Below are positions 1 to 16,259 of a stretch of 64,000 bases of DNA, piece by piece. A program made the position numbers and the translations under genes. Numbering within the stretch: the first letter of the stretch is position 1; each line of letters begins with the position of its first letter. The notes below the pieces were generated by a model, which searched no databases, was not told where the DNA came from, and was given only the letters and a program-made list of their open reading frames with translations. Source of the DNA: Microbacterium esteraromaticum (lineage in GTDB: Bacteria; Actinomycetota; Actinomycetes; Actinomycetales; Microbacteriaceae); assembly GCF_014084045.1 (NCBI RefSeq), contig NZ_CP043732.1:2108001-2172000 (forward strand). Direction: 5' to 3'.

Positions 1-331
1 TGCCGCCGGCGCGGCCCTCGCGTACTACGCAGGCGACCTGCGCGCGATCGATTCGGTGCGAGTCCTGCAGCGCGGCACCGCGATGCAGGCTGCGGGGTGG
101 GAGGCGCTGCGCCGCATCGAGCCCGGCCGCCCGCTCAGCTACAGCGAGTTCGCCCTCGAGCTCGGCAGCCCGCAGGCGGTGCGCGCAGCCGCGTCGATCT
201 GCGCTCGCAATGCGCCGGCGCTGTTCGTGCCCTGTCACCGTGTGCTGCGCTCCGACGGCTCCCTCGGCGGTTTCGCCTGGGGACTGCCGGTGAAGCAGAG
301 CCTTCTCGCCCGCGAGCGCGGGGAGCTCTGA
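1..331 (+). CDS. Methylated-DNA--protein-cysteine methyltransferase (3' part, truncated by window edge)
   Basis: Repairs O6-alkylguanine by moving the alkyl group onto its own active-site cysteine. The reading frame is open from base 2, so the 5' end lies outside the window and the GTG at 56 is internal. The visible 109 residues show the winged-helix DNA-binding part ([13 protein letters not shown], then [10 protein letters not shown]) and the acceptor motif VPCHRV. This is followed by GSLGGFAWG, which matches the usual GSLTGYAGG-like substrate loop less closely. The family is clear. Whether this is a stand-alone Ogt-type enzyme or the C-terminal half of an Ada-type fusion cannot be decided from here. 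The next gene lies about 130 bp downstream under its own promoter. Confidence 0.88.
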
Positions 332-378
332 CACATCCGGCGCCGCCTCGTCGGCGCCGGATCGCCCCACCCGGACTC

Positions 379-408
379 TTGCGCAGAAAGCGTCTTCCCC
401 AATAGGCT
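379..408 (+). promoter_or_regulatory. Promoter for leader peptide and ABC exporter
   Basis: A -35-like TTGCGC (379-384) and a -10-like TAGGCT (403-408, TANNNT type) lie 18 bp apart. They are about 50 bp upstream of the leader peptide start, so the transcript would carry a 5' leader of roughly 200 nt before the exporter gene. Confidence 0.5.
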
Positions 409-459
409 CGAAGGCTGTCGCGCCGACCGGGCGACGAAGCCGATGCCCAGGAGGACGCC

Positions 460-519
460 ATGACCAAGACGACTGTCACCCCACTCCTCGGCTCGCGCGC
501 ACTCCGCCTGCGCGACTGA
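460..519 (+). CDS. Putative leader peptide with Arg-Leu-Arg motif (19 aa)
   Basis: The short frame encodes MTKTTVTPLLGSRALRLRD. A perfect Shine-Dalgarno AGGAGG (449-454) sits 5 nt before the ATG, stronger than the one in front of the exporter gene itself. The peptide ends about 100 nt before the exporter and is followed directly by a hairpin. The segment RALRLRD holds an R-L-R tripeptide. In ErmD-type leader peptides such a +X+ motif stalls ribosomes when a macrolide is bound, and in Bacillus the heterodimeric exporter BmrCD is controlled by a translated leader. Inference: this is an attenuator peptide sensing ribosome-targeting drugs. Translation is well supported by the ribosome binding site; the sensing role is a hypothesis. 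Confidence 0.65.
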   Translation: MTKTTVTPLLGSRALRLRD

Positions 520-529
520 GCGTGCGGCC

Positions 530-547
530 GGCGACCTCGGGGTCGCC
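530..547 (+). promoter_or_regulatory. Hairpin immediately after leader peptide
   Basis: Perfect 7-bp stem GGCGACC/GGTCGCC around a TCGG tetraloop, starting 10 nt after the leader-peptide stop codon. It is placed where a ribosome paused on the last codons would alter folding. There is no T-run, so a classical intrinsic terminator is not evident. Confidence 0.45.
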
Positions 548-564
548 TCGCGCCACGCCCGCAC

Positions 565-582
565 CGGATGCCATGGCATCCG
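565..582. repeat. 18-bp perfect palindrome upstream of ABC exporter
   Basis: cggatgccatggcatccg reads identically on both strands. It lies between the leader peptide hairpin and the exporter start at 622. It could be a regulator-binding site or a second RNA stem. It is also built from two copies of the ggatgcc oligomer that is abundant in this genome, so it may be less special than it looks. Confidence 0.5.
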
Positions 583-621
583 CACCCGTCTTCGTCACCC
601 ACTCGCCACGCAACGAGAGTC

Positions 622-2496
622 ATGTCTGCCACCTCCTCTTCGTCGTCCCTGTCAACGTTCGCCGCGCTCTGGCGCCTGAAGCCCTTCGTGCGGCCGATCA
701 TCGGCCGCCTGATCGGCGGTGCGCTCAGCGCACTCGCCGCCGCCGTCATCGCCCTGATGATTCCGATCGTGCTCGAGCAGGTCGTCAAGAACTTCGACCT
801 CGGCGGAGGCGCGGACGCGGCCCTCGGGTTCGTCTTCGCCGGGGCATTCGGCGTCCTGGCGCTCGCTCTCGGCGAGGCGGTCATGGTGTGGCTGCGCCGC
901 TGGTTCGTCCTGACTCCGGCCACCGAGGTCGAGTTCCAGATGCGTGCCGAGCTCTACTCGCGGCTTCAGAGCCTTCCAGTCGCGTTCCACGACCGCTGGC
1001 AGTCGGGCCAGCTGCTCAGCCGGATGATGCAGGACATCGGCCTCATCCGACGCTGGATCGCGTTCGGCCTGATCCTGCTCGTGGTCAATGTGCTCACCAT
1101 CGCCATCGGCGCCGTGCTGCTGTTCCGCTGGCACTGGCTGCTTGGTGTGATCTTCCTGGTCACTGGCGTGCCGATGTGGATCCAGGGGTACCTGTTCGAG
1201 AAGCGCTACGGCACCCTTGCCCGCCGCAGCCAGGACCAGGCGGGCGATCTCGCCACCAGCGTCGAGGAGAGCGTGCACGGCATCCGCGTGCTGAAGGCGT
1301 TCGGGCGCGGCAAGCACGCGCTGACGCGCTTCAGCCGCCAGGCCGAGACGCTGCGCGAGACGGAGCTGAGCAAGGCGCGCGCGATCGCCGAGATCTGGTT
1401 CTGGCTCGACCTCATGCCGCAGATCGCATTCGGGCTCAGCCTCATCTCGGGCATCTGGCTGATCGCACAGGGGCAGATCGACGTGCCTCAGCTGTTCGCG
1501 TTCTTCGCGATGGCCGCGGTGCTGCGCTGGCCCATCGAGTCGATCGGCTTCCTGTTCTCGTTCATGCTCGATGCCCGCACGGCCACCGACCGCGTGTTCG
1601 ACATCTACCAGGAGACGAACACGATCACCGACCCCGCTGCTCCGGTGCGACTGGGACAGCCACGCGGTGAGCTCGCGTTCGAGGGAGCGCACTTCCGCTA
1701 TCAGGACGCGGGGGCGCACGAGCGCGACCTGCTCGACGGCATCGACCTGGTGCTGCGGCCCGGCGAGACGATGGCGCTGGTGGGTCTGACCGGCTCGGGC
1801 AAGACCACGCTGACCACGCTGCCGGCGCGCCTGTACGACGTGACCGCCGGTCGCGTCACGCTCGACGGCGTCGATGTGCGCGATCTCGAGCTGTCCGAGC
1901 TGCGCCGGCATGTGGCGATGGCCTTCGAGGACGCGACCCTGTTCTCGGCATCGGTCCGGGAGAACGTGCTGCTGGGTCGCGCCGACCTCGACATCCACAG
2001 CGAGGAGGGCGAGCGGGTGCTGCGTGAGGCTCTCGACGTCGCGCAGGCCGGCTTCGTCGACACCCTGCCCGAAGGCGTCGAGACGATCATCGGCGAGGAG
2101 GGGCTGAGTCTCTCGGGCGGCCAGCGCCAGCGTCTCGCGCTCGCCAGGGCCGTCGCCGCCGACCCCCGGGTGCTCGTGCTCGATGACCCGCTGTCGGCGC
2201 TCGACGTCGACACCGAGGCACTTGTCGAAGAGGCGCTGCGTCACGTGCTCGCCGACACGACCGCGCTGATCGTCGCGCACCGGCCGTCGACCGTCGCGCT
2301 CGCCGATCGTGTCGCGCTGCTGGAGCGCGGCCGCATCACCGCCGTTGGTACCCATTCCGAGCTGCTGCGCTCGAGCTCGCACTACCGCCACGTCATCTCG
2401 AGCCTCGAGGCCGAGGAGGCGGCGCGCACCGGCGCGATCGACATCATCCCCGACACGAGTGACGAACCCGAGACCGAGAAGGAGGTGCAGGCATGA
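622..2496 (+). CDS. ABC exporter half-transporter, degenerate-site subunit (624 aa)
   Basis: Half-transporter with six membrane helices (about residues 20-320) and a C-terminal ATPase domain. Walker [10 protein letters not shown] is near residue 390, the signature LSGGQRQ near 497 and Walker B near 515-521. Walker B ends in [11 protein letters not shown]: the catalytic glutamate is replaced by aspartate. This is typical of one subunit of heterodimeric exporters (TM287/288, BmrCD, LmrCD). The ATG at 622 is chosen because upstream codons are non-conserved; its ribosome binding site (gagag) is weak. It overlaps the partner gene by 4 bp (ATGA), implying translational coupling and equal stoichiometry. 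The likely role is drug or lipid export from the cytoplasm; the substrate is unknown. Confidence 0.9.
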
Positions 2497-4301
2497 GCAT
2501 CGCAGGCACCAGGGGCGAGGACCGCTCCAACTACACCAAGGACGAGAGCAGGGCCATCAGGCAGCGCTCGCTGCGCCTGCTCGGCTCGCTCGTCGAGCCG
2601 CTGCGTCTGCGTATCGTCATCGCCGCGCTCGTGCTCGTCGTGTCGACCGCGCTGCAGGTGGCGGGCCCGATCCTGATCGGCATCGCCCTCGACCGCGCCC
2701 TGCCCCACCTTCTCGAGACCGCCGACTGGATGCCCGCGATCACCGTCACGGTCGTGTACCTGCTCGCCGGGATCATCGGCTCCGCGCTGATCGGGCTGTA
2801 CGTCGTGCTCGCCGCGAGGATCACCCAGGCGGTGCTGCTCGACCTGCGCAAGCGGATCTTCCTGCACACCCAGAGGCTCAGCCTCGAGTTCCACGAGTCG
2901 TACACCTCGGGCCGCATCATCTCGCGCCAGACCAGCGACCTCGACTCGATCCGCGAGCTGCTCGACGGCGGCCTGAACAACCTCGTCTCCGGCGTGCTGT
3001 TCGGTCTGTTCACCTTCATCGCGCTCGTGATCGCCGACTGGCAGTCCGGCGTGATCCTGCTGGTCGCAGGCATCCCGCTGCTGCTTCTGATGCGCTGGTT
3101 CTACTCCCGCTCCCAGGTGGTCTACCGCGAGTCGAGGGTGATCAGCGCCAAGGTGATCGTGCAGTTCGTCGAGACGATGACCGGCATCCGGGCCGTGAAG
3201 TCGTTCCGGAAGGAGCCGCGCAACGACGAGACGTTCCGCAAGGTCGCCGGAGACTACCGCGACGTGAACCGGCGCTCGATGGTGCTCTACGGCACCTTCG
3301 AGCCTGGCCTGATGGGCATCGCCGCGCTGACTCTCGCCGGTGTCGTCCTGTGGGGCGGCCTTCGCGTCGCAGACGGCGCACTGGGCGTCGGCGTGCTGCT
3401 GGCGACCGTGCTGTACGTGCGCAACTTCTTCGCGCCCATGCAGGAGATCGCGATGTTCCTGAACTCGTACCAGTCGGCCACGGCCGCACTCGAGAAGGTG
3501 TCCGGAGTGCTCGAGGAGCAGCCCACCGTGCCCGATCCCGAGAAGCCGGTCGATCTGTGGGAGTCGCGCGGCGCGCTGCGATTCGACGGGGTCACCTTCG
3601 CGTACAACGACGACAGGACGATCCTGCCGGACTTCACGCTCGACATACCTGCCGGGCAGACGATCGCGCTGGTCGGCACGACGGGGGCGGGCAAGTCGAC
3701 GCTGGCCAAGCTCGTGTCGCGGTTCTACGACCCGACCGCTGGTCGTGTGACTCTCGACGGCGTCGACCTGCGCATGCTGCACCCGAAGGACCTGCGCCGG
3801 GCCATCGTCATGGTGACGCAGGAGGCCTACCTGTTCAGCGGCACCGTCGCAGACAACATCGCGCTCGGCAAGCCCGATGCGACGCTCGAAGAGATCCGCG
3901 CCGCCGCTCGCGCCGTGGGCGCCGACGAGTTCATCTCATCGCTGCCCGACGGCTACAGCACCGACGTGAACAAGCGCGGCGGGAGGGTCTCGGCCGGACA
4001 GCGTCAGCTGATCTCGTTCGCGCGCGCGTTCCTCGCCGACCCCGCCGTGCTGATCCTCGACGAGGCGACGGCCTCGCTCGACATCCCGTCGGAGCGGCTC
4101 ATCCAGCAGGCGCTGCAGACGCTGCTCGCCGACCGGACCGCGATCATCATCGCGCACCGCCTGTCGACGGTCGCGATCGCGGATCGCGTGCTGGTGATGG
4201 AGCACGGTCGCATCATCGAGGACGACACCCCTGCCGCGCTGATCGGGGGCACCGGGAAGTTCGCCCAGCTGCATGCGGCCTGGCAGGAGACGCTCGTCTG
4301 A
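2493..4301 (+). CDS. ABC exporter half-transporter, catalytic-Glu subunit (602 aa)
   Basis: Partner of the preceding gene, with the same six-helix plus ATPase architecture. Walker A is GTTGAGKST near residue 395 and Walker B is [11 protein letters not shown] with the catalytic Glu intact. The signature reads VSAGQRQ instead of LSGGQ. Combined with the Asp-for-Glu partner, the degenerate nucleotide site would pair the partner's Walker motifs with this VSAGQ signature. The consensus site would pair this subunit's Walker motifs with the partner's LSGGQ. That asymmetry is characteristic of heterodimeric exporters. The start ATG at 2493 overlaps the upstream stop. The N-terminal 35 residues are charged and cytoplasmic. 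Confidence 0.9.
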
Positions 4302-4340
4302 CATCGGTCGGCGGCCTGGCCGCGGGCGCTGGTCGGAGAT

Positions 4341-4346
4341 TAGGTT
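4341..4346 (+). promoter_or_regulatory. -10 element TAGGTT, probable leaderless start
   Basis: TAGGTT is followed by exactly six nucleotides and then the GTG start at 4353. This is the spacing expected when transcription starts at or next to the start codon. Confidence 0.5.
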
Positions 4347-4352
4347 GGAAGA

Positions 4353-5117
4353 GTGGAACCGATCCTGCTGCTGGCCGCCGAACTGTGGTGGGTCGCCCCT
4401 GCAGCGGCGGCCGGCGCAGGAGCGACCGGATACGCGATCGTGCGAAGGCGGGGAACGGTGAACGGCAGAAGGCTCGGCTACGACGCTGCGCGGCTCGAGC
4501 TGCGCCGGGCGCAGCTCGACGCGCGTGCCGCCGCCGACGCGGCCAGGGTCGCCAGGGCCGACGCCGCAAGAGTCGCCGCCGAGAAGGCCGCGGCACGGGC
4601 GGACGCCTCGGCCGTGGCATCCGCGCGTCGGGCGCTGCGCGAGGCGCAGCTTGCATCGCGAGCCGCGGTCGCGCGGGTGAAGGTCAGCCGGGTGCGCGTC
4701 TCGACGGAGCGATCGGCGATGGCGGCCGGCGGGATGCTGCCGCTGGAGCGACTGCGCGGACGGCACGACGTCCTGCTCGCGCGGTGGATGGAGTACGAGA
4801 CCGATGCCGCCCGCGCCATCGCGTTCCCCGCGATGAGCGACGGACGTCAGCCGGCGACGGCCGCGTTCCTCGCCGCGCTCGAGCGGGCTCGGGATGCCAG
4901 GCCGCGGCCCGACTCGCGGGTCACCGCCGAGGACTTCGCGGCGTACCGTGCATCGATCGACGACCTTGAGCGCGCGTTCGACGTCGCCGAGCGCGCCGCT
5001 CGCGGAGAGCAGGTGCCGTCCGAGCTGCCGGATGCCTTGTGGGACGCCGCGCGCACGATCGCCATGCGCACGTCGGACTCGGTGATCGCCTGGACGACCA
5101 GAAGGCGGCGTCAGTAG
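4353..5117 (+). CDS. Hypothetical membrane-anchored coiled-coil protein (254 aa)
   Basis: I do not recognise a named family. Residues 5-28 form one hydrophobic helix (ILLLAAELWWVAPAAAAG), so the protein is probably anchored with its C-terminus in the cytoplasm. Residues 45-125 are Ala/Arg-rich heptad-like sequence typical of a long alpha-helical coiled coil. The C-terminal half (130-254) is a mixed helical region with aromatic residues (WMEYETDAA, ALWDAARTIAMR). The GTG start follows a TAGGTT -10 box by six nucleotides, suggesting a leaderless message rather than read-through from the ABC genes. Its proximity to the exporter is not enough to infer a function. Confidence 0.7.
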   Translation: MEPILLLAAELWWVAPAAAAGAGATGYAIVRRRGTVNGRRLGYDAARLELRRAQLDARAAADAARVARADAARVAAEKAAARADASAVASARRALREAQLASRAAVARVKVSRVRVSTERSAMAAGGMLPLERLRGRHDVLLARWMEYETDAARAIAFPAMSDGRQPATAAFLAALERARDARPRPDSRVTAEDFAAYRASIDDLERAFDVAERAARGEQVPSELPDALWDAARTIAMRTSDSVIAWTTRRRRQ

Positions 5118-13965: not shown

Positions 13966-16182
<2,217 letters not shown>

Positions 16183-16190
16183 CCCATGAC

Positions 16191-16229
16191 GCAGAAGAGG
16201 CCGGATGCTCAGCATCCGGCCTCTTCTGC
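16191..16229. terminator. Bidirectional terminator between icd and L,D-transpeptidase gene
   Basis: Perfect inverted repeat with an 18-bp stem around the loop TCA, 8 bp after the icd stop. It serves the converging icd and transpeptidase genes. Confidence 0.85.
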
Positions 16230-16259
16230 GTCGGCGGGCGTCTTCGCGCGCCGCGTGGA

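Follow-up and report, generated by a model that had tools for sequence, protein, structure and literature searches.

The upstream open reading frame (uORF) of whiB7 is an actinobacterial leader that responds to several classes of ribosome inhibitors and controls a transcription factor. The uORF described here is likewise actinobacterial, and its target would be an ATP-binding cassette (ABC) exporter instead of a transcription factor. It lies in a 64-kb stretch of DNA from Microbacterium esteraromaticum (assembly GCF_014084045.1, contig NZ_CP043732.1, positions 2,108,001 to 2,172,000 of the forward strand), the whole of which is called the window; the source genome is 3.37 Mb in one contig. The described system closest to it in anatomy is bmrB-bmrCD of Bacillus subtilis, in which a small translated frame precedes a heterodimeric ABC multidrug exporter (PMC4191407). 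The closest in working is toiL-topAI of Escherichia coli, in which a ribosome held at the start codon of a short uORF undoes pairing of the uORF region with the ribosome binding site downstream; the proposed action of tetracycline is to hold ribosomes at this start and so to free the pairing around the downstream site (PMC12121999, which also mentions the whiB7 uORF). Attenuation by a uORF with a terminator works in an actinobacterium at lmrC of Streptomyces lincolnensis (PMC8546547), and the very short uORF of cplR is thought to stall ribosomes with little sequence context (PMC10201436). Based on the comparisons below, we consider it probable that the Microbacterium leader is a ribosome-mediated attenuator of the exporter that senses ribosome occupancy of the leader start, with putative inducers and a putative direction of switching.

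The leader occupies a gap of 290 bases between a methyltransferase-like gene (named by eye; frame end at 331) and a pair of ABC half-transporter genes. The features of the locus are as follows:

379 to 408, plus strand: promoter, with TTGCGC at 379-384, an 18-base spacer and TAGGCT at 403-408, recognized from conserved columns of 52 aligned leaders.
413 to 448, plus strand: putative transcript start and 5′ stem-loop (GGCTGTCG ... CGAC..AGCC), upstream of the leader Shine-Dalgarno.
449 to 454, plus strand: leader Shine-Dalgarno AGGAGG, read directly, with an ATG five bases downstream.
460 to 519, plus strand: uORF of 19 codons, peptide MTKTTVTPLLGSRALRLRD; position, start and Shine-Dalgarno are kept in relatives and the peptide is not.
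505 to 513, plus strand: Arg-Leu-Arg (RLR) codons CGCCTGCGC, residues 16-18, read directly.
520 to 558, plus strand: hairpin 1, downstream of the uORF stop (core 530-547, GGCGACC-TCGG-GGTCGCC; -24.8 kcal/mol).
565 to 582, plus strand: hairpin 2, CGGATGCCATGGCATCCG, a candidate terminator core that the preliminary description did not list.
615 to 619, plus strand: weak exporter Shine-Dalgarno GAGAG, read directly and kept in most rows of the 52-leader alignment.
622 to 2496, plus strand: ABC exporter subunit A, ATG at 622, with degenerate Walker B and canonical signature.
2493 to 4301, plus strand: ABC exporter subunit B, with canonical Walker B and degenerate signature, overlapping A by 4 bases.

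The frame, its AGGAGG, the hairpin at 530-547 and the exporter with a weak ribosome binding site had all been reported in the preliminary description and were read directly where it had placed them. The leader was then looked for in relatives. Genome contigs, scanned once with subunit A as the query, yielded 80 loci, 54 of Microbacterium type and 26 other. The frame and its Shine-Dalgarno were found in 51 of the 54, which are the nearest relatives; the Shine-Dalgarno is AGGGGG in L001 and L006, GGGAGA in L029 and AGGAGG in the others. The three loci without a counted frame are L002, where the frame is lost, L010, which has a run of N, and L037, which has no upstream sequence. The 51 frame-bearing loci and the window make up alignment A1 (52 leaders, chosen for having the frame). 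Outside this set, 103 orthologue-bearing Microbacterium genomes lack the exact 5′ pattern GGCTGTCGCRYCRAYCGG, which is single copy in its own genome and was found in 45 of 149 Microbacterium genomes (148 of which have the orthologue). Sixty of the 103 were fetched, picked down the list and not at random, and in 55 of these a short frame, preceded by a strong Shine-Dalgarno, lies at -168 to -281. Of the other five, L165 is unreadable (N run, repeats) and L146, L161, L191 and L195 have no frame; L174, whose frame starts with GTG and escaped the ATG scan, is outside the 106 leaders used below. A looser scan, which admitted weaker Shine-Dalgarnos and GTG, found a short frame in 15 of the 26 other loci, Agrococcus and Agromyces included.

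A scan for [AT]GGAGG followed by ATG and 8-45 codons was passed by 103 of 112 upstream regions (52 preselected for the frame and 60 not), compared to a mean of 0.05 and a maximum of 1 of 112 in 20 rounds of dinucleotide shuffles. Since the leader frame is kept this widely, it is not due to chance. With two mismatches allowed, the leader-start pattern occurs at 2 other places in its own genome, compared to 2 and 4 for a reversed control on the two strands, and the leader start was therefore taken to be unique there. As in known uORF attenuators, a short frame lies between promoter and gene with its position and ribosome binding site conserved, and it is presumably translated. The conservation of the small frame and its ribosome binding site, on which the preliminary description had staked its proposal, was thus borne out (51/54, 55/60 and 15/26 loci), and the leader observation is confirmed more strongly than could be known from the window.

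The peptide has fared differently from the frame. Codon changes and diversity were counted on related sequences and are hence rough, and diversity was calculated for 35 of the 52 leaders, with 17 left out, the window's subclade included. Diversity is lowest in the Shine-Dalgarno region (0.04), followed by the last 22 bases ahead of the exporter start (0.07), codon positions 1 and 3 of the late uORF (0.09-0.10) and the 5′ leader (0.10), and reaches 0.40 after the leader stop. Within the leader it peaks at codon position 2, whereas the first exporter codons are normal, with position 3 highest. Peptides are MTTIATARIAALGSTPARPLS-like in the window's wider clade and MSQAAIAAKTVFVLRIAGPERFRAQG- or MDQIDAPVAPAAASSVAARPGRRP-like elsewhere. 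In the largest group (34 leaders, 21 codons), 820 of 3066 single-base codon differences are synonymous, a fraction of 0.27 compared to 0.32 expected without selection. Judged by these counts, the peptide turns over while the leader is kept. Because the frame is kept while the peptide keeps changing, we favor the ribosome on the leader, not a peptide motif, as the sensor. These data suggest that a ribosome on the leader senses translation trouble and switches the exporter on.

The leader has also been lost naturally. Promoter and transcript start persist without the frame in L002 (genome G036, M. commune), G041, L146, L161, L191 and, less clearly, L195. The sequence missing from L002 is flanked by GATGCC repeats, whose window copies are at 442-447 and 567-572, which suggests that this leader was lost through a simple deletion. 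L002 retains hairpin 2 though it has no uORF. Repeated loss of this kind fits a dispensable regulator.

Under the favored explanation, ribosomes in an untroubled cell would traverse the leader without delay, after which the RNA would keep the exporter low. This low state would be held by the hairpins, acting as a terminator or a barrier, and in many relatives also by pairing between the exporter start and the leader ribosome binding site. Under impaired translation, a ribosome that stays at the leader start or close to it would occupy this region and so free the exporter start, and the hairpins would presumably be rearranged as well. The sensor would be occupancy of the leader's beginning, not arrest at Arg-Leu-Arg. 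We infer the induction by translation inhibitors, the direction of the switch, the role of the hairpins and the substrate of the exporter.

The RNA pairing was computed. An RNAalifold consensus of 34 leaders pairs the leader Shine-Dalgarno with the first exporter codons, and the fold of the window pairs it with early exporter codons (z -2.23). Ribosome positions were modeled by masking 34 bases at 13 positions in 106 leaders, with a response defined as a gain in exporter-start accessibility above 0.15. In the A1 clade, a block centered from -20 to +10 of the leader start raised accessibility by about 0.3, and 41 to 46 of the 52 leaders responded; a block centered on the leader start itself was predicted to free the exporter start in 46. 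Blocks from +20 onward gave 0-4 responses of 52 and a block at -30 gave 2. Redrawing the exporter codons synonymously weakened the pairing on average (-14.5 vs. -17.0 kcal/mol; 37 of the 52 leaders, related to one another). The predicted lock on the start region therefore describes many relatives well and the window tentatively. Such toiL-type start pairing is predicted in most of the wider clade and in the window, is absent in 4 of 7 members of the window's subclade and is rare in the other clade. In E. coli, toiL pairs along its whole length (PMC12121999), whereas pairing here is predicted at the leader start only; toiL also controls a toxin-antitoxin pair instead of an exporter, and its regulation culminates in intragenic Rho-dependent termination. 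A separate candidate pairing, between the uORF Gly-Ser codons (GGCTC) and GAGCC after the stop, had about 80% of cells paired and one double-changed pair, and was not pressed.

In 35 relatives, a conserved structure also lies between uORF and gene, as in uORF attenuators. The composite hairpin of these relatives, alignment A2 (GGATGCCGGACTC...GAGTCC...GCATCC), was written from one sequence, a bias in its favor, and has 94.8% of cells paired compared to at most 44.3% when slid. Five of its pairs changed on both sides compared to 2.7 in shuffles (reached by 16 of 500), and there were 20 double-changed cells compared to 4.6 (0 of 500). Across all 52 leaders, 87.9% of cells are paired compared to at most 50.4% when slid. 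Of the hairpin conservation suggested in the preliminary description, a covarying hairpin in 35 relatives stands, whereas the sequence of the window's hairpin 1 is limited to its own subclade; other clades carry different hairpins there. In the other large clade, the listed rows of L142-L194 have a GGCATA hairpin and then GCGTTC after the leader stop, and this is partly present in L191, which has no uORF. The 5′ stem has 94% of cells paired in A1 and no double changes. Folding of the 5′ region in 98 leaders gave a mean z of -1.5, a rough value since several rows (L011, L017, L020, L026, L043, L144 and L160 among those listed) had the start motif placed too early.

Several results weigh against sensing by ribosome occupancy. 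In the blocking model, the other clade has 7 responders among its 54 leaders at position 0 and 9 at most, and within the window's subclade 3 of 7 respond: W (the window), L001 and L054 do so, and L003, L006, L009 and L015 give no response. Of the synonymous redraws for the window, 84.7% pair equally well or better, so the pairing is unsupported there, and it is likewise unsupported by this control in L003, L006, L009, L015 and L020. The hairpin that covaries differs from that of the window, since the window's subclade has other hairpins at the same place. Hairpin 1 is only modestly special for its G+C content: its z is -1.64, and 16 of 200 shuffles fold equally well. The number of pair types in A2 (11) is not above shuffles (10.7). 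On the 52-leader alignment two of five pair measures are not above shuffles; the values there are 10 double-changed pairs compared to 7.4 (52 of 500) and 32 types compared to 31.6 (243 of 500). A terminator scan found no terminator-like site. Lastly, in two groups of four leaders from another clade, 14 of 31 (0.45) and 15 of 31 (0.48) differences are synonymous compared to about 0.3 expected, and peptide constraint is possible in these two groups. The silent drift that the preliminary description looked for was thus missing from the largest group and present in these two small ones.

Another possible explanation, which we hold more tentatively and which overlaps with sensing by occupancy, is transcription attenuation alone, as at bmrB-bmrCD. 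The hairpins at 520-558 and 565-582 would terminate transcription, slowed ribosomes would allow read-through, and pairing at the exporter start would have no role. BmrCD is controlled in this way (PMC4191407), a heterodimeric ABC exporter likewise stands directly behind the leader here, and the covarying hairpin of the 35 relatives fits. BmrB itself has 53 residues and a terminator inside its coding region, whereas the leader here has 19 codons and its hairpins lie behind the stop; no terminator was found in the leader coding region, and the empty terminator scan counts against this explanation too. The core of hairpin 2 (CGGATGC...GCATCCG) recurs at 57 sites in the genome compared to 0 for a reversed control pattern, and several sites adjoin gene ends (L092, L096, L097 and window position 16203), which speaks for termination. 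Of 18 palindrome sites examined, however, 12 fall within open frames; the other 6, these four sites among them, fall between frames. Locus L002 also argues against this explanation because, with hairpin 2 and no uORF, its exporter would stay off. The lmrC leader of S. lincolnensis shares actinobacterial ribosome-mediated attenuation by a uORF and a terminator hairpin; it differs in that lmrC encodes an ABCF protein and uORF2 overlaps the terminator, and removal of uORF2 leads to constitutive expression (PMC8546547). Two further observations concern the palindrome. At 16180-16240 of the window, between converging genes, there is a long palindrome (core CGGATGCTCAGCATCCG, the same core that occurs 57 times in the genome) that resembles a two-way terminator, and G000:C1 has two clusters of CGGATGC palindromes, at 1243624-1245642 and 1487878-1488453, whose close spacing is partly regular (about 99 and 88 bases).

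Sensing by occupancy also has a stricter, peptide-independent form, in which the leader's own Shine-Dalgarno would lock the exporter start and any ribosome held at initiation or at the first codons, whatever the drug, would open the exporter. We regard this form as doubtful, and rate it lower on account of the excess of silent change in two small groups of leaders. If it is true, selection would keep the leader start while peptide and hairpins turn over, and the whole module would be repeatedly lost, as it is in the genus.

It is improbable that the leader is no sensor at all and only loads ribosomes near the 5′ end, through RNA protection or reinitiation, with constitutive expression. The very strong Shine-Dalgarno and the changing peptide agree with such a role, and PMC4833913 proposes that reinitiation after a leader frame raises expression. 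Leader stop and exporter start are 102 bases apart in the window and about 90-195 bases apart among the rows listed, with structure between, and reinitiation is probably poorly favored because of this long structured gap. Ribosome loading would also give the covarying hairpin between the frames no role.

The preliminary description had proposed an ErmD-type arrest, in which a ribosome carrying a macrolide halts at Arg-Leu-Arg (residues 16-18), rearranges the next hairpin and turns the exporter on. Macrolides arrest ribosomes at Arg-Leu-Arg on ErmDL (PMC8298421). In the window's subclade, a grouping made by eye on the similarity of leaders and exporters and with no tree, RLR is present in the window, G069, L001, L003 and L015, where the peptide ends RLRD. 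It is missing from 3 of the 8 uORF-bearing members, since L009 ends in HHQRD, L006 in ISARD and L054 in LLRR, and the frame itself is gone in L002. Another clade has RLR as well, in three leaders (L147, L150 and L152) whose peptides are different. The total is 8 of 106 leaders, and R-X-R occurs in 27 of 106, so an Arg/Lys-X-Arg/Lys motif is not conserved in the peptide in the manner of ErmDL, and RLR was rejected as a conserved element. Arg is concentrated at the leader C-terminus. Among 33 dissimilar leaders, 10 have R-X-R in the last nine residues compared to 5.7 in tail-only shuffles (p 0.018), and the spacings RR, R-X-X-R and R-X-X-X-R show no enrichment there in the same leaders. A role for R-X-R in some lineages is therefore possible, and the silent-change excess of the two small groups would agree with it; the largest group has no such excess. 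A late block at the RLR position left the exporter-start accessibility unchanged, in a model that ignores transcription termination. With ErmDL itself only RLR is shared: the motif is at residues 6-8 instead of 16-18 of 19, the controlled gene encodes a methyltransferase instead of an exporter, RLR is not conserved among the window's relatives, and one section of the source reports RLR to be dispensable for erythromycin arrest on ErmDL (PMC8298421). Arrest by macrolides at Arg-X-Arg is thus unlikely and is the least probable of the explanations. Of the proposed ribosome-mediated attenuator, the kept leader, its ribosome binding site and suitably placed hairpins stand, and RLR as the conserved sensor does not.

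The promoter of the preliminary description was partly upheld: the -10 (403-408) and the bases just 3′ of it are kept between species, whereas a sigma-70 consensus scan, with the consensus of E. coli, found 0 sites at the promoter. TAGGCT is exact in 69 of 106 leaders, the remainder are mostly other TANNNT hexamers, and none was found in 6. The presumed transcript start, GGCTGTCGCGCCGACCGG at 413-430, is conserved, and the exporter mRNA probably begins near 413. A promoter and transcript start resembling these (TAGNCTGNARGGCTG-like; window 403-420) precedes the exporter in L056, L058, L063 and L077, where no leader frame was found. Promoter and transcript start may be older than the uORF, since they are also present without it. 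A promoter of the WhiB7 type was considered because GGGAAT is found upstream of the -35 in many relatives, and was dropped, as the window does not have it and the WhiB profile has only two matches in the genome, neither WhiB7 by eye. The second match (L090, 1304-1644) covers only profile positions 17-65; an open frame with a WhiB-like start continues on the same strand in another frame, possibly through a frameshift or an assembly error.

Subunit A has the motifs LSGGQ and LDDP, and subunit B has VSAGQ and LDEA. We take LDDP to have Asp where the catalytic Glu is expected, and complementary degenerate ATPase motifs to be the sign of a heterodimer. By these motifs the exporter is heterodimeric, in agreement with the preliminary description. 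Among the listed solved relatives of subunit A (60 of 577) are TM288 (E 1e-76) and YheI (E 5.7e-70), which is presumably BmrC of B. subtilis. Subunit A has an orthologue in 148 of 149 Microbacterium genomes (E <= 1e-140). Its match spans 2510 bases in L004 and 2612 in L015, compared to the usual span of about 1800.

A search of window positions 1-5000 against Rfam found no family match up to E = 1, and a Microbacterium exporter leader is not described among the matches listed in the open-licence literature. If the leader is a ribosome-mediated attenuator, an intrinsic exporter of Microbacterium would be under the control of a widespread switch linked to the ribosome. The more than 100 natural leader variants and several losses would then provide a ready test of whether such a switch needs a specific arrest peptide or merely a well-placed ribosome.

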